Positions 20,964-30,951 of a DNA stretch of 64,000 nucleotides are shown here, in pieces. The position numbers and the translations under genes are program-made. How positions within the stretch are numbered: the stretch's first letter is position 1; each line of letters begins with the position of its first letter. This DNA is from Arthrobacter cryoconiti (lineage in GTDB: Bacteria > Actinomycetota > Actinomycetes > Actinomycetales > Micrococcaceae), in the NCBI RefSeq assembly GCF_020905375.1, contig NZ_JAJJBU010000009.1, forward strand, positions 62,001-126,000, written 5' to 3'. The notes beneath the pieces were generated by a model. That model had not been told where the DNA came from. It made no database searches and worked only from the letters and a program-made list of their open reading frames with translations.

Positions 20964-22484
20964 TTACGAGCCCACGAGCACGTGCGCTAGGCGTTCTCCG
21001 ATCATGACGGATGGGGCATTGGTGTTTCCCGTGGGTATTAGGGGCATGATCGAGGCATCGGCAATACGCACCCCGGACAGACCATGGACTCTGAATGTGC
21101 CGGGGTCGACGACGGAAAGTGCGTCAACCCCCATCTTGCACGTGCCGACCTGGTGGTGATAAGTCACCACTGATTCACGGACGTATTGTTCCAACTCATC
21201 GTCAGAAATTCCGGGCCCGGGATAAATTTCTTCCGGTTCCCATCCTGCCAAGGCTTGGGTGCGCCCAATCTCACGGCACTGGCGAACGGACGCCACTAAG
21301 GCATCCACGTCGGCCTGCTCCGAGAGGGCGCCCAGATCAATCAGAAGCGGATTCTGCTCGCCGGGGCCGCTGAGGGTGATCTCCCCACGGCTCTGTGGCC
21401 GAACCAAACCGCCGAGCATGGAAAAAGCGTTGTCGGGCCCGGTCATTTCTCCTTGTGCGTAGTCCTGGGAATACATGGGAACTGAGAAGAAGATCGGCTG
21501 GGTGTCTGCTACGGGAAGATCGGGATGGCTCTTGGCAAAGAAGTGGACCTCGGCTGGCGCAACATCACCCATGGGGACCGGCTTGGCTTTGGTGGTGAAG
21601 ATGACGGGAGAGAGAAGGTGGTCCTGTAGGTTCTTTCCGACACCGGGCAAATCGTGAACCGCTTGGATTCCGGCATCACGCAATTCCGCGGCTGGACCAA
21701 TCCCTGAACGCAGTAGTATTTCTGGGGTGTTGATGGCTCCCGCTGACAGGATGGTTTCCCCGGCCTGAATCATCTGTCTGCTGCCCTTATGATCGAACTC
21801 GACGCCGGTCACGTGACCATCCGCAATGAGAAGGCGGCGCACATGGGCGCCTGTAAGTAGAGTCAGGTTTGGGTGCTCCGCTACCGGTTTTAGGTAGGCA
21901 TGCCAGGTGTTGAAGCGTTTGCCATCGCGGACGTTTAGTTGCATGCGCGAGACGCCCTCCACGCTCCCGGAGTTGTAATCCTCATTGAATGCAATGCCAA
22001 TTTCTTGCGCACCGGCCAGCATGTCTTCCTGGATGGGGTTGCGCGCAAAGTCTTGGACAACATCGAGTAACCCTGAGCCGCCATGTGTTTTCGAGGATCC
22101 GCCGTCGAAGTTTTCGATGGTCTTGTAGAAAGGCAGTACGTCATCCCATCCCCATCCTGGGCATCCTGACTTTTCCCAGTTGGTGTAATCCCAGCGGTCA
22201 CCACGGACCCATATGGTGGCATTGAGAGCATGGGATCCACCCATGACCTTTCCGCGGGGTAGGTGAATACGCCGTCCGGCGCATCCTGCCTGCTCGGTGG
22301 TGTAGTAGTCCCAATCCTGTTCACTATGCCAGAGCATGCCTAGGTTGTAGAGCGGGGGGATGTTCGGATTGATGTCGTAGTCTCCGGCCTCAAGAACAGC
22401 AATTCGTTTTCCTGCGTCCAGCAATCTGCGGGCAATAACGTTGCCCGCAGAACCTGCGCCAATGAGAACGTAATCAAATTCCAT
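20964..22484 (-). CDS. GMC-family flavin oxidoreductase (choline dehydrogenase-like)
   Basis: 506 residues. The FAD-binding start is YVLIGAGSAGNVIARRLLDAG. GMC signatures are HLPRGKVMGGSHALNATIW and GAINTPEILLRSGIGPA. The C-terminal catalytic region has YHHQVGTCKMG (His) and NTNAPSVMIGERLA. It oxidises an alcohol or sugar alcohol; substrate unknown. It is a lone gene between decayed mobile sequences. Distance and relics make operon membership with the catabolic cluster to its right unlikely. Confidence 0.92.
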   Translation of the reverse strand: MEFDYVLIGAGSAGNVIARRLLDAGKRIAVLEAGDYDINPNIPPLYNLGMLWHSEQDWDYYTTEQAGCAGRRIHLPRGKVMGGSHALNATIWVRGDRWDYTNWEKSGCPGWGWDDVLPFYKTIENFDGGSSKTHGGSGLLDVVQDFARNPIQEDMLAGAQEIGIAFNEDYNSGSVEGVSRMQLNVRDGKRFNTWHAYLKPVAEHPNLTLLTGAHVRRLLIADGHVTGVEFDHKGSRQMIQAGETILSAGAINTPEILLRSGIGPAAELRDAGIQAVHDLPGVGKNLQDHLLSPVIFTTKAKPVPMGDVAPAEVHFFAKSHPDLPVADTQPIFFSVPMYSQDYAQGEMTGPDNAFSMLGGLVRPQSRGEITLSGPGEQNPLLIDLGALSEQADVDALVASVRQCREIGRTQALAGWEPEEIYPGPGISDDELEQYVRESVVTYHHQVGTCKMGVDALSVVDPGTFRVHGLSGVRIADASIMPLIPTGNTNAPSVMIGERLAHVLVGS

Positions 22485-22749
22485 ATTCGTTGTCCTATCG
22501 TGTAGCTACCTTATGATCTGGGACTGGCCCGACTTACTTCATTCGCTCGGGTGCGCGTTCTAGGTCATGAACTGAACGTTGGGGGCATGCTTTGGAATGC
22601 CCCACCTCTAATGTGACTAGGATCACAAGTTGGAAGCTTGGCTTTGCGCGCATAGCTCTTGCCAATAGGCGCCAAGTGTTCCGGCGGAATGGGGCTGGAC
22701 CTACTTCGTGCCGCCGCCAATAACGCCCTGAACGTGACGGAATCGGATG

Positions 22750-23056
22750 TTATCCGGGTTCCAGGGTGAGGTAGCGGTAGACTGTGGCGCGGCTTGCTCC
22801 GATGATTTTGCCGATGTCGGCTGCTTGCAGTTCTTGTTTTTGAGTACGTTGGCTAGTTTCACCTTGAGGTGGGAAGCCGTGACTCTTGGCGTCGTGCTTT
22901 GCGGCCGTGGGCGGCCGCGATGGCCATACCGGCTTTGGTCCCGCTGATCCCATGGTCTCGGCAGATCCGTTCACAACCGGTAGCTTCCAGCTCCCGAATC
23001 TGCATCTCGGTTTCCTGGTCCACGGTGCTCACCCGGGCGCATCCAAGACGCGTCAT
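22750..23056 (-). pseudogene. Serine resolvase/invertase pseudogene with internal deletion
   Basis: The N-terminus LGCARVSTVDQETEMQIREL keeps the catalytic Ser, then GISGTKA joins directly to GMAIAAAHGRKA, which in intact Hin/Tn3-type resolvases lies about 90 residues later. After that the frame shifts, and the HTH LQAADIGKIIGASRATVYRY is read in another frame to the stop. The core of the catalytic domain is therefore missing. Confidence 0.85.
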
Positions 23057-23310
23057 GAACTTCCGACCGTACTTTCTTGTCGGAGGTTATTTTTCCCTGA
23101 TGTTGAGAATAGCGGGATGAGACACATTGTTGGGATTTCTAGGGTTTCACGCAAACCACGGGTACTCGGCGATTCAGGGCGATTAGCATCATCAGATGTT
23201 GGCTCAGGGGAGTGACGGCTGGTTGTCCCATCAATGGTTCCTTTGATGAGATTTATAGTCGGATGTGGGTCACTGGGCCACCACGCGCAATCGGTAGTTG
23301 CGTCCGGGGA

Positions 23311-23721
23311 CTAGTGTGTCTCAGCGGTGACGAGTGGGTCCGGTTCAGGGTAGCTTATTGTTCCTGCCATCTCTATTGCGAAACCGTTCCGTACCCAGTA
23401 CTCGTAGCCGCCAATCAGCTCGCGGACGTCGAAATCTGCCGCGAGCAGTCGGTGTGCGGTGTTCGTTGCACCGTTGCAGCCCGGGCCCCACCCGTAAATG
23501 ATCAGGCAGCGGTCGTGGGGGAGGGTGTCCGGGAGGGTATCCAGCGCATCTGCAGGCAAATGCAGCGCGCCGGTTATATGGCCGTGGTCCCACGATTGCT
23601 GTTTACGGCTGTCGATGATTACCGCGGAGCCGCTGGCTTGAGCGCCAGCGGCCGCCACTGCATCGATCTCGTAGGCGAGCTTTGCTTCGATGAACGCGAG
23701 CATCTCGGTGCGGGTGGGCAT
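23311..23721 (-). CDS. Rhodanese-like domain protein
   Basis: 136 residues, a single rhodanese domain: VIIDSRKQQSWDHGHITGALHLP is the CH2A region and IYGWGPGCNGATNTAHRL carries the active-site Cys loop. Its ATG overlaps the stop of the KDPG aldolase gene by one base, so it is the last gene of the catabolic cluster. Sulfurtransferase activity is possible; its role in the pathway is unclear. Confidence 0.88.
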   Translation of the reverse strand: MPTRTEMLAFIEAKLAYEIDAVAAAGAQASGSAVIIDSRKQQSWDHGHITGALHLPADALDTLPDTLPHDRCLIIYGWGPGCNGATNTAHRLLAADFDVRELIGGYEYWVRNGFAIEMAGTISYPEPDPLVTAETH

Positions 23722-24353
23722 TACTGCCTTGCCGACCCGCGGGGGCTATCATTGCCTAGCAGCGTTGCGAGCCGAGGGAGCTGGTCAGGGTCTTCAAGGG
23801 CCGAACCCACGGCGACAACGCGTGCTCCCGCAGCCAGGAACGTACCCGCGTTGGCAGCATCCATACCGCCGGTTGTGACAAATTTGGCCTGTGGGAAAGG
23901 ACCGTGCATTGCCTTTATCCATTGGGTGCCCAACACGGAGGCAGGGAACGCTTTGAGCCACGTCAGCCCGGACTTCAGTGCCAGCTGGACCTCTGTGGCG
24001 GATCCAACCCCTGGCATCGGGGGCATCCCTGACTCCGAGGATGCCCGAACGACCTCCAAGTCGAAACCCGGGCTGACAGTGAAGGAAGCCCCCGCGGCGG
24101 CAGCTAGACGAACGTGTTCAATAGAGACCACGGTGCCCGCGCCCACCGCTTTTCCGCGTTCACGTGCCGCCGTAGCAACAGCTTTCAGGGCACTGACGTC
24201 TTCCTCCGTCTGGATGGGGATTTCGACGACGTCGATGCCAAGGTCCCAGGCTATCGTCGCGACAGCGAGGCTTCGTTCTGTGCCCATGCCGCGAAGAATT
24301 GCCATCAGTGGTGCAGTAGTGAATATCTCGCTGAACTGCGCGTTTTCAGTCAT
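23721..24353 (-). CDS. eda: 2-dehydro-3-deoxy-6-phosphogluconate (KDPG) / 4-hydroxy-2-oxoglutarate aldolase
   Basis: 210 residues, class I aldolase. The catalytic base Glu is in VVEIPIQTEED and the Schiff-base Lys in LTWLKAFPASVLG; the phosphate-binding segment is FVTTGGMDAANAGTFL. It splits KDPG to pyruvate and glyceraldehyde 3-phosphate. It sits directly downstream of a KDG kinase, matching its substrate supply. Gap to the kinase is 35 nt; it overlaps the rhodanese start. Confidence 0.93.
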   Translation of the reverse strand: MTENAQFSEIFTTAPLMAILRGMGTERSLAVATIAWDLGIDVVEIPIQTEEDVSALKAVATAARERGKAVGAGTVVSIEHVRLAAAAGASFTVSPGFDLEVVRASSESGMPPMPGVGSATEVQLALKSGLTWLKAFPASVLGTQWIKAMHGPFPQAKFVTTGGMDAANAGTFLAAGARVVAVGSALEDPDQLPRLATLLGNDSPRGSARQ

Positions 24354-24388
24354 TTCTTTGCTCTGTCCTTAGAATGCGTGAATTTTGG

Positions 24389-25330
24389 TTAGATTTTGCT
24401 GGTTTGGGTGGGAACCGGTTCGGCGATGAAGTCACTGGTGGAAAGCAGTACGAGCCGCGCGCGTTCGTGGCCTGCCCGCAATCGAACGGCGGTGGGATCT
24501 CCTCGAAGAGCCGCAGAGAGGTACCCCGCGGCAAAGGCGTCACCGGCTCCTACGGCCTCGATCACCTCGGTGGGGATGGCCGGTTCGAACGCCCGTGTCC
24601 CGGCGCTGAATTCGGTTGCCCCCACATCGCCGTCCTTGATGATGAGCCGCCCGGTGTCCGGCAGGATCGCGTGGACGTCTTCCGGCGTGACGCAGTCCCA
24701 CAGTGACTGTGCTTCGTCCAGGCCGACAAAGACAATGTCTGCCCGGTTGGCCAGGGAGAGTAGTGCCGGTGCCGCTGCGCCGGCACGCCAGAGTGAGGGC
24801 CGGTAGTTGACGTCGAAGCTCAGTGACGCGCCGCTTCCGGCAACCCGTTCGAACACGGCCTCGACAAGATCGGCGCAGGATGACGAGAGTGCTGACGTAA
24901 TTCCGGACAGGTGAACAATCTCGGCCTGTTCAAGTGGCACGGACGCCACCGTTGAGGGACCCATTCGAGAGGCCGCTGAATCGCGGCGGTAGTAAAGCAC
25001 ACCGCGTCCGGGGTCCTTGAAATAGACCCCGGTAGAAGCATCTGGATTGTTGGTCACCCATCGAACGTCGACTCCGTGGCGTTCGATGGATGTTCGGATG
25101 CGGCGGCCGAGAACGTCCTCACCCAACACGCTCACCCATGCCGAGGGAATGCCAAGGTGTGCGGCGTGGCTGGCCACATTCGACTCTGCGCCACCCGGAT
25201 GAAGACTCAGTTTTGATGCCGTTGCCAACGGTTCGGCGTGCTCGGGGGTGAGCATCATCATCGTCTCGCCAATGGTGATCAGACGTGGAATGGGTCCGGC
25301 GGTTGCCGTTGCCCGTGCAGTGTGTGGCAT
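24389..25330 (-). CDS. kdgK: PfkB-family 2-keto-3-deoxygluconate kinase
   Basis: 313 residues. PfkB features: LHPGGAESNVASHAAHLG near the N-terminus (sugar-binding G-G-A-x-x-N-V-A) and VIEAVGAGDAFAAGYLSA at the C-terminus (anion hole and catalytic Asp). STGVYFKDPGRGVLYYRRDSAAS is typical of KDG kinases. It phosphorylates KDG to KDPG for the next gene's aldolase. An 8-nt gap separates it from the deacylase gene. Confidence 0.88.
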   Translation of the reverse strand: MPHTARATATAGPIPRLITIGETMMMLTPEHAEPLATASKLSLHPGGAESNVASHAAHLGIPSAWVSVLGEDVLGRRIRTSIERHGVDVRWVTNNPDASTGVYFKDPGRGVLYYRRDSAASRMGPSTVASVPLEQAEIVHLSGITSALSSSCADLVEAVFERVAGSGASLSFDVNYRPSLWRAGAAAPALLSLANRADIVFVGLDEAQSLWDCVTPEDVHAILPDTGRLIIKDGDVGATEFSAGTRAFEPAIPTEVIEAVGAGDAFAAGYLSAALRGDPTAVRLRAGHERARLVLLSTSDFIAEPVPTQTSKI

Positions 25331-25338
25331 CGATATCC

Positions 25339-26907
25339 CTAATTTTTGGTGTGTTCGCGCCGGAGGCCTAGGCCGGGTGTGATGGTCGAGAGTCTGCCGC
25401 CGGCCAGGACCTGTTGGCCGGCCACGAGCACGTCGTCGATTCCTATCGCTTCGCCGAGGGGTTTTTCATAGGTGGCGGTGTCAGTGACCGCTTGTGGGTC
25501 GAGGACGATGAGGTCGGCCTTCCAGCCTGCTGCGATCCGGCCGCGTCGTCCGAGGCTGAAGCGCGCTGCCGGCGCGGTGGACAAGTGCTGCACTGCTTCT
25601 GGCCATGACCAGGTAGGTGTTTCGCGCACGTATTCACGTAGGTATCTGGCGAAGGTTCCACGTGCCCGTGGATGCGGGTGGGCACCGATGAAGATTCCAT
25701 CGGAGCCTCCCATATGACCTTCTTGGGAGAAGATGGTGGCCAGCTCTGCGATGGAACGCTGGTGCGGTACCGCCATGACGGCGTTGACCTCCAGATGGGA
25801 GGCGGCCAGTAAGTCCAAGGTGATCTCGATTGCATCGGTGCCGGCATGCTCGGCAGCGGCTTCAAGGGTGAGGCCGTGTGCCCAAGCGAATTCAGGGGCG
25901 GCAATGTGGGCCAGCGTGATCATGGAAGGCCACTCGGGTCCCAGACTCGCGTTGTGTTCGATTTTAGGGAACCAGTCACGGCGCAGTCTCCCGCGCTCAG
26001 CCGGATCGCTGATGAGATTGATGACCGTATCGGCCGGCAATACCGAAAGTTCCGGCGGCAGCAGCGGCATGGCCAGCAACGTGCAACCACGGGTATATGG
26101 ATAGGCGTCAAAGGTCGTGTCCACTCCCGCGTCCCGGAGGAGCTTCAACTGGCTGCCGATGATGGCAGCCTGCGCATGAAAGTGGGAAATGTGGACGCGG
26201 GCCCCCGATTCCGCAGCAATGTGGGCGATCTCAGAAATACCGGCGGCAGAATTCGCCTCGTAACCTCCGCGCATATGCGTGACGTAGAGCCCTCCGGCGG
26301 CAGCGACTGGCTTGCACAGGGCAGCGATCTCGTCAGCGGTTGCGAAGATGCCCGGCACGTAGTCCAGCCCGGTGGAAATCCCGACGGCACCGTCACGCAT
26401 CCCCTGTTCAACCAAGGCAACCATTCGGACGATCTGCGATTCGTTGGCGGGAGCACTTGATCTTCCGCAGACTTCTGAGCGAACGGTTCCCGCGGGGACA
26501 AGGTAGGCGAAATTGAGTCGGGACCGGCCCGCGACCGCTGCGAGATAGCTGGCTACGCCGCCCCCGGCATACTGCGGATGTCCGCCATTGATGGCTGCGA
26601 AGTACTTGCTCGCGTACTCGCCGTTGCCCGGGGCATAAGAGACTCCGTCCTGCCCGGTCACCACCGTCGTCACGCCCTGTTTCAGCACGGCTTGTTGAAC
26701 GGCGTCGTCCGCAACGAGTCCGTCGGCGTGTGAATGGACATCGATGAATCCGGGCAGGACCAGGCGGCCGTGACACTCGATGGCACGATCACCTGTCGAT
26801 GGCGCGACGTCGCCAACCTCCGTGATTGTTGTTCCTTCGATTGCGACGTCTGCTTTACGCATGACGCCGTCGTCTACGATCGTGCCGCCGCGCATCACCA
26901 AACGCAT
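25339..26907 (-). CDS. N-acyl-D-amino-acid deacylase-type amidohydrolase
   Basis: 522 residues, amidohydrolase superfamily. Metal ligands are in FIDVHSHADGLV, then GISTGLDYVPG, HMRGGYEANSA and VHISHFHA, and the C-terminal Asp region MGGSDGIFIGAHPHPRARGT; this is the D-aminoacylase pattern. It removes an acyl group from an N-acyl amino acid of D configuration or an amino sugar acid. The neighbours (PLP deaminase, KDG kinase, KDPG aldolase) suggest N-acetyl-D-glucosaminate as the physiological substrate; that is inference. Confidence 0.87.
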   Translation of the reverse strand: MRLVMRGGTIVDDGVMRKADVAIEGTTITEVGDVAPSTGDRAIECHGRLVLPGFIDVHSHADGLVADDAVQQAVLKQGVTTVVTGQDGVSYAPGNGEYASKYFAAINGGHPQYAGGGVASYLAAVAGRSRLNFAYLVPAGTVRSEVCGRSSAPANESQIVRMVALVEQGMRDGAVGISTGLDYVPGIFATADEIAALCKPVAAAGGLYVTHMRGGYEANSAAGISEIAHIAAESGARVHISHFHAQAAIIGSQLKLLRDAGVDTTFDAYPYTRGCTLLAMPLLPPELSVLPADTVINLISDPAERGRLRRDWFPKIEHNASLGPEWPSMITLAHIAAPEFAWAHGLTLEAAAEHAGTDAIEITLDLLAASHLEVNAVMAVPHQRSIAELATIFSQEGHMGGSDGIFIGAHPHPRARGTFARYLREYVRETPTWSWPEAVQHLSTAPAARFSLGRRGRIAAGWKADLIVLDPQAVTDTATYEKPLGEAIGIDDVLVAGQQVLAGGRLSTITPGLGLRREHTKN

Positions 26908-26932
26908 GGTGTTTTCCTTTCAGACTTGTCGG

Positions 26933-28222
26933 TTAGAAGAAGGTTCGGACGAGGCCTACGACATGGTCGCTGTGTCGAGAAGCGACCATGGGGAGGTAGT
27001 GCCATTTGTCGAATGTGGTGCATGGATGTGACAGGCCCAGCGAGACCACCTGTCCGATTCCCACGTCCTGGTCGGTGAGTCCTAGATAGCTGTGCTGGTC
27101 ATTCATGGCCAGGATCGAGGCACCGTCGAGTTGCCTCCATTGGCTGTCGAGTTCGTGGGACACCTGTCTGGGGATCGGGAGCCCTTCGTCGAAGGGGAAA
27201 TCGCGCTTGCCTCCGTCGACCAGTGCCAGTCTCGGCTCGGGGTGTGACACTACGCGGGCAAGTCCCCACATTGCCGGGCGGAGTTTTTCGGAGGCCGGAT
27301 GGTTTTCTGCCATTCCCTCGTCAAGCGGGGAGATGCGACGGTAGAACCCGTCGTCGTGTGTGATGTAGGCACCGCTGCGCAGCGTCCACAAAGTTCGCGA
27401 GTCATCGGCCATCGCGGCTCCATACACCTCGGCGACGACGTCGAAGTATGCGCTTCCTCCTGCGGTGACATAAATTTCGCCTTCATCGTAGAGCTCACGC
27501 AGTGATTCATGGAGCTGAACTTGCTGTTGAAGATAGCTTCGTACGTTATCCAACGCCACCGCCGAGCGGTCATGGCCAAGGGACCCTTCGTATCCGGCCA
27601 CGCCTGCCAGACGGATGACATCGGAAGCGGCCGCGTGCCGGGCGACCTCAACCGCGTCTGTAACTGTGCGTGCCCCGGTGCGCCCACCGGGCGCGCCGAG
27701 TTCAATACAAACATCCACGGGCCGCGGGGTACCAGCGGTTCGAAGAGCCCGCTCCATAATCTTGATCGCTTCGACTGAGTCGGCCCAGCAAGTAAAGCGA
27801 AACTCCGGGTCAGCAAGTTCCGTGGCGAGGTAGCGCAGGGAGCGTTCATCGACGACGGCGTTGGCGAGCATGATGGATTCCAATCCAAAGGTGCGCGCGG
27901 TGCGGACCTGACCCATGGTGGCAAGCGTAATGCCGATGCTTCCGGCATCGAGCTGCTGTTGCCAAAGCTCTGGCGCCATGGTTGTCTTTCCGTGCGGCAT
28001 GAGCTTGAGCCCGCGCGAGGAGCACCACTGCGACATCAGATCTAGGTTGCTTTTAATCGCGCTTTCATCCAGTGCAACGAGAGGTGTCCAGAACTCGGAG
28101 AGTTTTGGTCCGCTGGCAAGAAACTCGTTCACGGTCAAGCCAAATGCGCGCGTTGGGACTCCCTTGTCACATGGGGATAGGTGCGCATTCCCCAGCTGAT
28201 GAAGCTTTAGCTCTTGTGTCAT
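26933..28222 (-). CDS. PLP-dependent amino acid deaminase (D-threonine aldolase/D-serine dehydratase-like fold)
   Basis: 429 residues. The alanine-racemase-type barrel begins with TPLVALDESAIKSNLDLM and has the PLP lysine in LMPHGKTTMAPELWQQQ; IELGAPGGRTGART and the C-terminal DSD domain with SHPCTTFDKWHYLP (His/Cys metal ligands) are present. The family eliminates ammonia from beta-hydroxy D-amino acids. D-glucosaminate dehydratase, giving KDG, belongs to this type. The gap to ridA is 18 nt. Confidence 0.85.
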   Translation of the reverse strand: MTQELKLHQLGNAHLSPCDKGVPTRAFGLTVNEFLASGPKLSEFWTPLVALDESAIKSNLDLMSQWCSSRGLKLMPHGKTTMAPELWQQQLDAGSIGITLATMGQVRTARTFGLESIMLANAVVDERSLRYLATELADPEFRFTCWADSVEAIKIMERALRTAGTPRPVDVCIELGAPGGRTGARTVTDAVEVARHAAASDVIRLAGVAGYEGSLGHDRSAVALDNVRSYLQQQVQLHESLRELYDEGEIYVTAGGSAYFDVVAEVYGAAMADDSRTLWTLRSGAYITHDDGFYRRISPLDEGMAENHPASEKLRPAMWGLARVVSHPEPRLALVDGGKRDFPFDEGLPIPRQVSHELDSQWRQLDGASILAMNDQHSYLGLTDQDVGIGQVVSLGLSHPCTTFDKWHYLPMVASRHSDHVVGLVRTFF

Positions 28223-28240
28223 TGTTCAGTCTCTACTGTT

Positions 28241-28633
28241 CTACTTGCCTGCGGGCACGACGGCGACGACGTCGATCTCCACGAGGATGTTCGCCAGCTG
28301 TGATCCGACGGTGGTGCGCACGGGGTACGGCTCTGAGAAGAACTCCTTATAGGCTTCGTTGAACTCGGTGAAGTCCGCCAAATTTGCAAGGTGCACCGTG
28401 GTCTTGACGCAGTCGTCCATGGTGAGACCTCGCTCGGCGAGAATGGTCTGAACATTACGAAGTACCTGACGAGTCTGGTCGGCCGCGGTGTCTGGAACTG
28501 CCCCGGTGGCGGGGTCCTGCGGACCGAAACCTGCCGTGTAGAAGAACCCGTTGGCCTCAACACCCTGGCTGTAAGGGCCGGCGGGCTGAGGAGCCTGGGT
28601 GGTGTGGAACGCGGTCTTGGAAGTTGACGTCAT
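28241..28633 (-). CDS. RidA-family enamine/imine deaminase
   Basis: 130 residues. QPAGPYSQGVEANGFFYTAGFGP and the C-terminal PYPVRTTVGSQLANILVEID, with the conserved Arg, are the RidA signature. RidA hydrolyses 2-aminoacrylate-type enamines/imines released by PLP dehydratases to 2-oxo acids and ammonia. Its position directly upstream of the PLP deaminase fits clearance of that enzyme's intermediate. Confidence 0.93.
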   Translation of the reverse strand: MTSTSKTAFHTTQAPQPAGPYSQGVEANGFFYTAGFGPQDPATGAVPDTAADQTRQVLRNVQTILAERGLTMDDCVKTTVHLANLADFTEFNEAYKEFFSEPYPVRTTVGSQLANILVEIDVVAVVPAGK

Positions 28634-28715
28634 GGGGTGTCCTTTTCTCTAATTTGAGTTCTGTATGGATATTTCCGAATGTATCGGCGTACGTCGTGTG
28701 GGCTCGAAAAGCTGG

Positions 28716-30050
28716 TTACGTGTAGAGCCGACCTGCGTTCTCGACGTCGGGCCGGAACGAAGCAAAGGCGGTAGCTACGATACCGATGAGTGAAATAACC
28801 GCGGCATAGACGATCACTGGCCATATGCTGTCGAACGCCACGGATAATGCAGTGGCGATGAGGGGCGCGAATCCGCCACCGATTGTATTGGAGATCTGAT
28901 AACCGATATTGACGCCAGTGGTCCTAGCTTCGACGTCGAACATTTCAACTAGCATCGTCTGGAGCGTGCCCTGCATGGCAACCCCGGGTATAACGAATCC
29001 AATGATCATGCCCAACCAGATAAGCACTGCCACCTGGGTGCCGTAGAGAGCAAATGTGGGGTAAATGAGTAGGGCAAAGCCGATGCACCCACCGATGTAG
29101 ACCTTGCGTCGACCGATCTTATCCGACAAACTCCCCCAAAGTGGTGCAGCGAAAATCTGCAAGACGCCAACGATCATCGTGCCGATGAATCCAACTTGCG
29201 CATGAGTTCCCTTGGAGACCATGTAGGCAAGTCCGAAGGTCAATACGATGTACCCGGCGATGCTTTGCGGTAGGCCAATAAGGATTCCTAGAATCGCGTT
29301 CTTCGGATGCCGGAACACATCCTTGAGCGGTGAGTTGCGGGTTTTTGGTTTGAGAGCGCGTGCGGCTGCAAGTTCCTTGAACTCATCGGATTCTTCCAAC
29401 TTGGAGCGCAATACGACCGCAATGATAGCGAGAATCGCGGCGAAGACGAATGGGATCCGCCAGCCCCAAGTTAGGAAGAACGACTGCGATCCGGATCCGA
29501 CCGCCGTCATGAGCCCGGCGGAAGCGACATTAGCGATGCCGGCCCCGCTGATCAGCAGCGCCCCGAAGAACCCGCGCCGGCCTGCAGGTGCATGTTCGAC
29601 GACGATTGATGCCGCGCCGCCCATTTCACCACCGACGAAAAGTCCTTGGAACATACGGAAGAAGAGGAGCAGAATTGGCGCTGCAATGCCAATGGTGCTT
29701 GCGGACGGTATCAGCCCTATGCCCGCCGTGCAGATACCCATTCCGATGACTGTGATCATCAGAGATGTTTTGCGGCCCATCTTGTCTCCAACATGGCCAA
29801 ATATGAGGCCACCCACCGGGCGCAGCAAGAAGCCGAAGGCAAAGCTTGCAAAGGACGCCAGCGTTCCGACCACTGCACTGTCCTGAGGGAAAAATACAGC
29901 GGGGAACACGGTGGCTGAGGCCAATCCGTACAAGTAATAGTCGAAGTACTCCATTAAGGTGCCGATTGCGCCACCTGCTATGGCACGGCGTTGTTTCTTT
30001 GAAAGTGCCGTCATCTGTGCTGCCGGCTGTACCTGCTGTAGTCCTGCCAT
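28716..30050 (-). CDS. MFS transporter, metabolite:H+ symporter (MHS) type
   Basis: 444 residues, 12 predicted helices. GHVGDKMGRKTSLMITVIGMG is the MFS loop 2-3 motif, and GTLMEYFDYYLYGLAS is the MHS-family first helix. The middle loop (EESDEFKELAAARALKPKTRN) is charged. As first gene of the cluster it probably imports the pathway substrate. It is divergent from the YheO-type regulator. Confidence 0.88.
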   Translation of the reverse strand: MAGLQQVQPAAQMTALSKKQRRAIAGGAIGTLMEYFDYYLYGLASATVFPAVFFPQDSAVVGTLASFASFAFGFLLRPVGGLIFGHVGDKMGRKTSLMITVIGMGICTAGIGLIPSASTIGIAAPILLLFFRMFQGLFVGGEMGGAASIVVEHAPAGRRGFFGALLISGAGIANVASAGLMTAVGSGSQSFFLTWGWRIPFVFAAILAIIAVVLRSKLEESDEFKELAAARALKPKTRNSPLKDVFRHPKNAILGILIGLPQSIAGYIVLTFGLAYMVSKGTHAQVGFIGTMIVGVLQIFAAPLWGSLSDKIGRRKVYIGGCIGFALLIYPTFALYGTQVAVLIWLGMIIGFVIPGVAMQGTLQTMLVEMFDVEARTTGVNIGYQISNTIGGGFAPLIATALSVAFDSIWPVIVYAAVISLIGIVATAFASFRPDVENAGRLYT

Positions 30051-30079
30051 GGGAGCCTCCTTGCCCGCCGCGAAACATG

Positions 30080-30095
30080 AGTGACGCCGCTCACT
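30080..30095. promoter_or_regulatory. Inverted repeat AGTGA-N6-TCACT in the divergent promoter region
   Basis: Perfect 5-bp arms, 30 bp upstream of the MFS gene start. A TTGTACAA palindrome lies to the right in the same gap (30126-30133). Either could bind the adjacent regulator; the arms are short and may be chance. Confidence 0.3.
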
Positions 30096-30125
30096 AATCC
30101 GCGGCTGAATTCAAATTACCACCAC

Positions 30126-30154
30126 TTGTACAATGTGTCTAGGATCTTTACGAT
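30126..30154 (+). promoter_or_regulatory. Candidate promoter of the YheO-type regulator
   Basis: TTGTAC at 30126-30131 and TACGAT at 30149-30154, with a 17-bp spacer, 35 bp before the ATG at 30190. The -35 overlaps TTGTACAA, which would suit autoregulation. Confidence 0.4.
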
Positions 30155-30189
30155 TTGTATATGCGACCTTTGGCGTATAGAAATGCCTT

Positions 30190-30951
30190 ATGAGTGAGGA
30201 CGTTATAACGATGATTTCCGCACAGCCCCCCGATGAGAACTTGGCGTACATGGGGACCTATGAGTCCATGGCCGACATTCTCATGGTGTTCCGACCCGTC
30301 ATGCACGCTATGGCCGCCGCTGCCGGGCCCGGCTGCGAAGTTGTTTTGCACGATCTTTCGGCTCCGAAACCCGATCTCGGCCACACGATCGCGGCGATCG
30401 AGAACGGGCACGTCACCGGTCGAGAGATCGGCGGACCTTCCTCGAGTTTGGGGGCGGCTGTGCTTCACAACCAGTCGGCGGACCACAACGCCTTCGGGTA
30501 CCGCGGCTTAACAAGTGATGGACGCCAGCTACGTTGTTCCTCCGTGTATTTTCGCAACTTGTCTGGCCGGATCATCGCGGCGTTGTGCGTAAACGTTGAC
30601 GTAAGTGCGATTCATCAAGCTAGAAACCTTCTCGATAGCCTGATGCCGCAGGACTCGCCCGATTCTTCGGAGCAGCCAAATGAGTACTTTGGTCAAGACT
30701 TGGTTGGTGTAATGGATGTGATGATTGCCGAAGCCATTCGGGAAGTGGGCAAGCCGGTTGATCAGATGAGTCGGGACGACCGCATTTCGGTGCTGGGAAA
30801 GTTGGGCCAACAAGGCGTGCTGCAAATGCGCAAAGGCGTTGAGAGGATTGCCTCACGCTTGGACATCTCGAGGGTTACGGCATACTCATATCTTGAGGAA
30901 GCTCGAAGCCAAACCCCTGACGCGGGCGCCGCGGACCCTGTCAACCGCTAG
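30190..30951 (+). CDS. YheO/DauR-type PAS-HTH transcriptional regulator
   Basis: 253 residues. The N-terminal YheO-like PAS domain includes LADI-type LMVFRPVMHAMAAAAGPGCEVVLHDLS and CSSVYFRNLSGRIIAALCVNVD. The C-terminal HTH_22 is QQGVLQMRKGVERIASRLDI followed by SRVTAYSYLEEAR. DauR, the D-arginine utilisation repressor, has this layout. It is divergent from the seven-gene catabolic cluster and is its likely regulator. Confidence 0.88.
   Translation: MSEDVITMISAQPPDENLAYMGTYESMADILMVFRPVMHAMAAAAGPGCEVVLHDLSAPKPDLGHTIAAIENGHVTGREIGGPSSSLGAAVLHNQSADHNAFGYRGLTSDGRQLRCSSVYFRNLSGRIIAALCVNVDVSAIHQARNLLDSLMPQDSPDSSEQPNEYFGQDLVGVMDVMIAEAIREVGKPVDQMSRDDRISVLGKLGQQGVLQMRKGVERIASRLDISRVTAYSYLEEARSQTPDAGAADPVNR

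Follow-up and report, generated by a model that had tools for sequence, protein, structure and literature searches.

We propose that an operon of Arthrobacter cryoconiti, found at positions 23311-30951 of the 64,000-nucleotide stretch of contig NZ_JAJJBU010000009.1 analyzed here (the window), is probably responsible for the import and degradation of an N-acyl-2-amino-2-deoxy-hexonate. N-acetyl-D-glucosaminate (GlcNAc1A), which a sequence-only reading of this DNA had put forward as the substrate, is still the most likely candidate, at roughly even chances, but nothing in the sequence fixes it. In the predicted pathway, a symporter of the major facilitator superfamily (MFS) would take up the N-acyl-2-amino-2-deoxy-hexonate from the surroundings, a D-aminoacylase-like amidohydrolase (hereafter the deacylase) would remove the acyl group, and an enzyme dependent on pyridoxal 5'-phosphate (PLP; the deaminase) would eliminate water and the amine to give 2-keto-3-deoxygluconate (KDG) and ammonia, with RidA hydrolyzing the enamine/imine. 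A PfkB kinase would then convert KDG to 2-keto-3-deoxy-6-phosphogluconate (KDPG), to be cleaved by an aldolase to pyruvate and glyceraldehyde-3-phosphate, and a YheO-type regulator would govern the divergent promoters. This series of reactions, from deacylation through deamination to KDG and phosphorylation to aldol cleavage, was also part of the sequence-only reading and is supported by two lines of evidence: the kinase and aldolase accompany the deacylase, deaminase and RidA across rearrangements, and sugar-acid genes stand beside the cluster in some relatives.

Association of the kinase and aldolase with the deacylase cluster

All eight genes, the regulator included, are found in one locus in 7 of 9 relatives, so that their grouping is not due to chance. 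The regulator, MFS, RidA, deaminase, deacylase and rhodanese genes are kept in all nine; in A. silviterrae (L003) and Sinomonas humi (L005) the kinase and aldolase alone are missing at the locus. With the deacylase as the query, matches at E ≤ 1e-100 were obtained in 13 of 395 genomes of the family and 61 of 396 of the order, and at E ≤ 1e-60 in 109 of 394 of the class, distant paralogues of about 35% identity included. Association was scored by tblastn (E ≤ 1e-8) within 8 kb of the deacylase in 67 distinct loci, picked by similarity and not at random, with four loci of the ong type (see below) left out; 60 came from the similarity searches, three were relatives (L004, L006 and L008) and four were plasmid records (L061, L062, L063 and L069). 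Deaminase and RidA are both near the deacylase in 60 of the 67 loci, the kinase in 25, the aldolase in 26, either of the two in 28 and both in 23. Grouped by identity of the deacylase, either gene is present in 9/13 loci at 70% or more, 15/38 at 50-70%, 2/14 at 40-50% and 2/2 below 40%. Since the kinase query finds only 1 to 3 homologues per genome (8 genomes), a chance neighbor within 8 kb would be rare.

Moreover, the kinase and aldolase occupy at least four positions relative to the deacylase cluster across lineages: collinear and following the deacylase, as in the window; divergent from the deaminase (L004, L006, L041); between RidA and the deaminase (L099, L101, L109); or divergent, beside an Opp/Dpp-type ABC transporter and an IclR gene (L043, L047, L095). 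At L137 (genome G599), a deaminase paralogue (52% identity) lies beside a kinase (64%), an aldolase (68%), an IclR gene and an ABC transporter, without a deacylase; the pair thus goes with the deaminase, as expected if the product of the latter is KDG. When the deacylase tree was labeled by hand for a nearby kinase, the label changed 13 times (at least 10 changes being forced by well-supported branches) versus 22.3 for shuffled labels, gains and losses being undistinguished; labeled as having none were L092, L098 and L083, which have the aldolase but no kinase nearby, L112, with a kinase at a distance of 9 kb, and, by mistake, L056, with a 37% kinase match at 2 kb.

Sugar-acid genes are also found in the neighborhood. 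A sugar kinase, a KDPG aldolase and a gluconate:H+ symporter are annotated beside the deaminase and deacylase of Tsukamurella (L063), and an Arthrobacter locus (L069) codes for a GntP protein (416 bits); these two loci unite a deaminase, a third deacylase lineage, the kinase, the aldolase and GntP. A MalE-type sugar ABC transporter and an aldolase of the dihydrodipicolinate synthase (DHDPS) type are present at L107/L108. Seventeen stretches contain an IclR-like protein of one cluster, and six contain an Opp/Dpp-type binding protein, the family names resting on one tested member of each; because transporters of the Opp/Dpp type would be equally suited to carrying peptides or N-acyl amino acids, they are neutral evidence. 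The repeated association and the sugar-acid neighbors together support KDG as the product of the deaminase.

In the genome of A. cryoconiti, the window pair represents the only kinase homologue (E ≤ 1e-20) and the only aldolase homologue (E ≤ 1e-8). In four close relatives that have no local pair, adjacent homologues of the kinase and aldolase are found at another place in the genome, at 64% and 67% identity, respectively, in G599, where a stop is reported inside the aldolase match yet an open 201-aa frame is called, and at 43-44% and 31-33% in G574, G585 and G614; the latter are remote and may therefore be general sugar-acid genes. A second aldolase copy (74%) is found in genome G509 (L138:9226-9873), apart from the main cluster, with genes that by eye are IclR-, DHDPS- and aldehyde-dehydrogenase-like.

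Identity of the enzymes and relation to the ong pathway

The kinase is nearest to characterized KDG kinases, with 1v19, presumably a Thermus enzyme, as its best PDB match (132.8 bits). The aldolase matches KDPG-aldolase fusion constructs best and then KDPG aldolase 1wa3 (125.6 bits), the top natural enzyme; it keeps E44 and K134, which we take to be the Glu and Lys of class I aldolases. "KDG kinase" and "KDPG aldolase" are nevertheless family-level names, as the kinase (equivalog models), the aldolase (149.7 for its subfamily versus a cut-off of 156.05), the deacylase (best 25 of 57 models) and the deaminase all score below the curated NCBIfam cut-offs.

The predicted steps are those of the ong pathway, a route discovered in marine bacteria, which, according to PMC9537276, has been shown biochemically in Pseudoalteromonas prydzensis and is complete in Gammaproteobacteria and one Betaproteobacterium. 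We recovered ong loci from Pseudoalteromonas (L066, L068), Klebsiella (L067) and Vibrio (L065), those of L065 and L068 being unannotated. The ong clusters of P. prydzensis, Vibrio and Klebsiella share with the window a deacylase, a fold-III deaminase, RidA and a KDG kinase, and those of Vibrio, Klebsiella and Serratia have the aldolase too. In contrast, the ong deacylase and deaminase belong to other clades, transport is of the SSS/TBDR type instead of MFS, and the regulator is RpiR, whereas the actinobacterial clusters have YheO or IclR. The ong cluster also includes a GH20 gene, absent from the window cluster, which has an extra rhodanese and lies in a genome without LPMO_10, a family of lytic polysaccharide monooxygenases (LPMOs). 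In another known route for aminosugar acids, the substrate is likewise converted to the phosphate of a keto-deoxy sugar acid, which is split by an aldolase, but phosphorylation by the phosphotransferase system comes first and the deaminase is of another fold. Among the matches listed in the open-access literature, none describes an actinobacterial GlcNAc1A or D-glucosaminate pathway, which is no proof of its absence.

PpOngB (PDB 9kb1) is described as a GlcNAc1A deacetylase of the D-aminoacylase-like family with a subtype V metal site (Cys97/His222/His252), in which Ser290, Ser292, Gln298 and Glu226 contact the sugar hydroxyls and in which Cys97 and Lys254 are conserved, as they are in both types of D-aminoacylase (PMC12017989). 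The OngB of L066 aligns with it end to end, with identical numbering. The window deacylase is about 29-30% identical to OngB, and the solved structure that it matches best is 1m7j (31.5% identity), which we take to be the D-aminoacylase AfDam, as we take 3gip to be BbDam. His68, His70, Tyr194, Tyr285, Asp368, Arg379 and both metal-site histidines (His222/His252) of OngB are kept, and the substitutions are C97D, L116I, E226G, K254H, S290G, S291C, S292T, Q298L and L370I, the alignment near 298 being unsure because of insertions; the insertion in the window deacylase is longer than in PpOngB. Asp at position 97 is found in 68 of 68 actinobacterial rows (the 67 loci and the window); position 254 is His in all but two of these rows (66 of 68), the exceptions being L063 and L069, which have Thr. 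As the window deacylase lacks the Cys97 and Lys254 conserved in OngB and in AfDam and BbDam, it can be assigned to none of these three characterized groups, which therefore give no indication of its substrate. In the deacylase tree, the four OngB proteins group with AfDam (100/100), the window clade comprises 65 rows (100/99) and L063/L069 stand apart; the OngB rows were flagged for long branches and for a deviating composition. The residues and the tree rule out that the window deacylase is an OngB orthologue. Nothing matched OngB at E ≤ 1e-90 when 376 genomes from across the phylum were searched, a weak result obtained without a positive control.

The deaminase carries the signature of the fold-III D-serine-dehydratase family, the Lys of a PHGKT motif (K79) and an HxC pair (H399-P-C401); K79, H399 and C401 are invariant in 8 of 8 sequences and are presumably the PLP lysine and the metal pair. 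It is 31-33% identical to OngC. Its best PDB match, the D-serine deaminase-like 3gwq (223 bits), nonetheless groups with the four OngC proteins (100/99), leaving the window deaminase outside, a position that rules out orthology with OngC; in this tree, too, the ong rows were flagged for long branches and a deviating composition. Three further deaminases, from L051, L052 and L111, are placed on the OngC side, but support for this placement is weak (82/30). The comparison with the characterized OngB and OngC, proposed alongside the sequence-only reading, therefore turned out negative: the residue signature failed and both trees place the window enzymes outside. Because both enzymes lie in other branches of their families, the route was apparently assembled separately, and the operon appears to be a non-orthologous counterpart of the ong pathway.

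Evidence against the assignment and alternative substrates

Several observations weigh against an N-acyl-aminohexonate, and against GlcNAc1A in particular, as the substrate. Both YheO-type regulators and the fold of the deaminase are usually linked with D-amino acids. The kinase and aldolase, from which the sequence-only reading deduced the substrate, are no constant members of the cluster: either gene is present in 28 of the 67 deacylase loci, and 39 have neither. No kinase homologue (E ≤ 1e-20) was found in 8 of the 25 cluster genomes without a local kinase that were checked genome-wide, whereas 17 have one; 13 further loci without a local kinase fall outside this check, and the G405 locus ends with a short contig. 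The kinase-free genomes are G211, G419, G826, G837, G882, G967, G1028 and G1029, with G419 and G1029 being 82% and 89% complete, and G826, G837, G882 and G967 represent one genus. Thus, the deacylase, deaminase and RidA alone are no proof of a sugar acid, and the lineages without the pair either handle KDG otherwise, as with the DHDPS-type aldolase of L107/L108, or use another substrate. Moreover, the specificity residues of OngB are absent from the window deacylase, in which the sugar-contact positions 290/292/298/226 are aligned with G/T/L/G (298 with the uncertainty given above) versus S/S/Q/E in 4/4 OngB proteins. The structures predicted from 10-row alignments are poor, with a mean pLDDT (predicted local distance difference test) of 43.5 for the deacylase and 63.6 for the deaminase. 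OngC itself is reported to deaminate D-Ser and D-Thr too (PMC9537276). Finally, a search of the A. cryoconiti genome for LPMO_10, the one LPMO family searched, gave no match (as a control, the family was found in Lactococcus lactis), and its single GH18 is marginal (30.8 bits versus a cut-off of 29.6).

The operon could, in principle, serve the catabolism of N-acyl-D-serine or -threonine to pyruvate or 2-oxobutyrate, with the kinase and aldolase as neighbors with another job. The many clusters without the pair, those of the kinase-free genus among them, are as this would have it; the best PDB matches are named D-aminoacylase and D-serine deaminase, and position 292, Ser in many relatives, is Thr in the window as in D-aminoacylases, while 298 is Leu as in AfDam (in the unsure part of the alignment). 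However, the pair recurs with the deacylase, deaminase and RidA and also with the deaminase alone, GntP and sugar ABC transporter genes are neighbors in relatives, and the Cys97 and Lys254 of D-aminoacylases are missing too, so we consider a D-amino acid substrate unlikely.

An equally small likelihood is given to the same chemistry acting on another acylated 2-amino-2-deoxy-hexonate, of the galacto or manno type or with an acyl group other than acetyl. The Klebsiella ong genes are annotated as 2-dehydro-3-deoxygalactonokinase and as an aldolase for 2-keto-3-deoxy-6-phosphogalactonate (KDPGal), so that stereochemistry is unreadable from names; the deacylase pocket is unlike that of OngB, and in the window aldolase one segment is KDPGal-like (EIPIQ versus EIPLN in the Klebsiella enzyme); this aldolase also scores alike against KDPG aldolase 1eua (89.9 bits) and KDPGal aldolase 2v81 (89.2 bits). 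On the other hand, its top natural match is the KDPG aldolase 1wa3, the kinase has a KDG kinase as its best match, and the residue before the GG motif is Thr, which favors the gluco epimer, where the Klebsiella KDPGal-type enzyme has Val. GlcNAc1A is retained as the most likely candidate.

That the operon completes an oxidative breakdown of chitin carried out by the organism itself is very improbable: a GH20 hexosaminidase (379.9 bits) is encoded in the genome, but there is no GH20 gene in the cluster, GH18 is marginal, and the pairing of an LPMO with an ong cluster in one genome, which marks oxidative chitin utilization, is absent here as far as LPMO_10 is concerned. A route through its own LPMO is ruled out for LPMO_10. 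In the family, LPMO_10 is present in 12 of 390 genomes and in none of the 13 cluster genomes (the genome draws differ slightly), and the link to oxidized chitin drawn in the sequence-only reading finds no support, LPMO_10-bearing and cluster genomes being disjoint. If the pathway operates as proposed, the organism would scavenge free aldonic acid from its surroundings.

Organization of the operon and neighboring genes

The eight open reading frames (Table 1) are intact, and the seven minus-strand genes facing a divergent YheO-type regulator, as well as their Pfam families, were as anticipated from the sequence-only reading. The gaps between the seven genes are 82 (after the MFS gene), 18, 25, 8, 35 and -1 bp, the aldolase stop overlapping the rhodanese ATG as TAATG; this tight spacing and the stop/start overlap suggest a single operon. 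The genome is 3.6 Mb, and the nearest named relative by deacylase is Arthrobacter wenxiniae (87% identical).

Table 1. Features of the operon and of its regulatory region (window coordinates; Pfam bit scores are whole-protein values)
Feature	Position	Strand	Evidence
YheO/DauR-type regulator, PAS_6 + HTH_22	30190..30951	+	Divergent; Pfam PAS_6/YheO 107 bits, HTH_22 63 bits
Candidate operator TGTACAATGTGTCTA	30127..30141		Imperfect TAGACA-N3-TGTCTA palindrome, MFS/regulator gap
MFS metabolite/H+ symporter (2A0106 type), presumed uptake	28716..30050	-	MFS_1 116 bits
RidA-family enamine/imine deaminase	28241..28633	-	PF01042 (Ribonuc_L-PSP) 112 bits; TIGR00004 114.4 bits, cut-off 106.25
Fold-III PLP deaminase/dehydratase, D-serine deaminase type	26933..28222	-	PF14031 (D-ser_dehydrat) 63 bits
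D-aminoacylase-like amidohydrolase, predicted N-acyl-aminohexonate deacylase	25339..26907	-	Amidohydro_3 94 bits
PfkB sugar kinase, probable KDG kinase	24389..25330	-	PfkB 161 bits; PDB match 1v19
KDPG/KHG-family aldolase	23721..24353	-	Pfam 130 bits; PDB matches 1wa3, 1eua, 2v81
Single-domain rhodanese	23311..23721	-	Pfam 46 bits

In the divergent MFS/regulator gap, the TGTCTA half-site of a palindrome with two mismatches to TAGACA-N3-TGTCTA is invariant in 11 of 11 aligned gaps, the regulator itself being present at all nine relative loci examined. Exact copies of GNACANNNTGTCTA occur in 17 of 145 loci, mostly in the MFS/regulator gap, several being the same place fetched twice. The palindrome is no more frequent in the window than expected by chance (7 matches at ≤3 mismatches versus 9.45 expected), so that conservation is what supports this candidate operator.

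The rhodanese is within 8 kb of the deacylase in 13/13 loci with a deacylase identity of at least 70%; although it is kept in close relatives, none of the proposed steps needs sulfur transfer. Downstream of the operon, a GMC-family oxidoreductase (20964-22484, minus strand) was considered as a GlcNAc oxidase and rejected; since it has no match in L001-L009, it is probably not a member of the system. A degraded remnant at 22740-23060 (minus strand), with two recognizable pieces in different reading frames and stops inside, resembles what we take to be a serine resolvase/invertase, and an IS110-family transposase (PF01548, PF02371; 18039-19241, plus strand) lies about 4 kb from the rhodanese end.

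In other actinobacterial lineages, a protein of about 400 aa, belonging to one cluster, is encoded near the deacylase and RidA (L051:9514-10716, L059:11310-12554, L060:4377-5567); there is no Pfam match for those of L051 and L060 and no NCBIfam or PDB match for that of L060. Related deaminases (38-40% identical) are found on plasmids of Klebsiella, Rahnella and Pantoea (L064, L142, L143), where RidA, IclR and an amino-acid ABC transporter accompany them and no deacylase or kinase is annotated in the stretches shown; these possibly represent a separate D-amino-acid module.

Implications

We tentatively suggest, at somewhat less than even chances, that Actinomycetota built a pathway for GlcNAc1A or a sister aminohexonate independently of the Gammaproteobacteria, through a separate lineage of D-aminoacylase-like deacylases with Asp replacing the metal-binding Cys. 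If so, three deacylase lineages, those of the window, of OngB and of L063/L069, would have been joined to a KDG kinase and an aldolase, and the window deacylase would extend a new group of carbohydrate deacetylases with a different metal site. Some proteins annotated as "D-aminoacylase" or "D-serine deaminase" would then need revision. The use of aminosugar acids would not be mainly gammaproteobacterial but also spread through soil Actinomycetota, and the turnover of fungal and arthropod chitin would be linked to scavengers that can do without their own LPMO.

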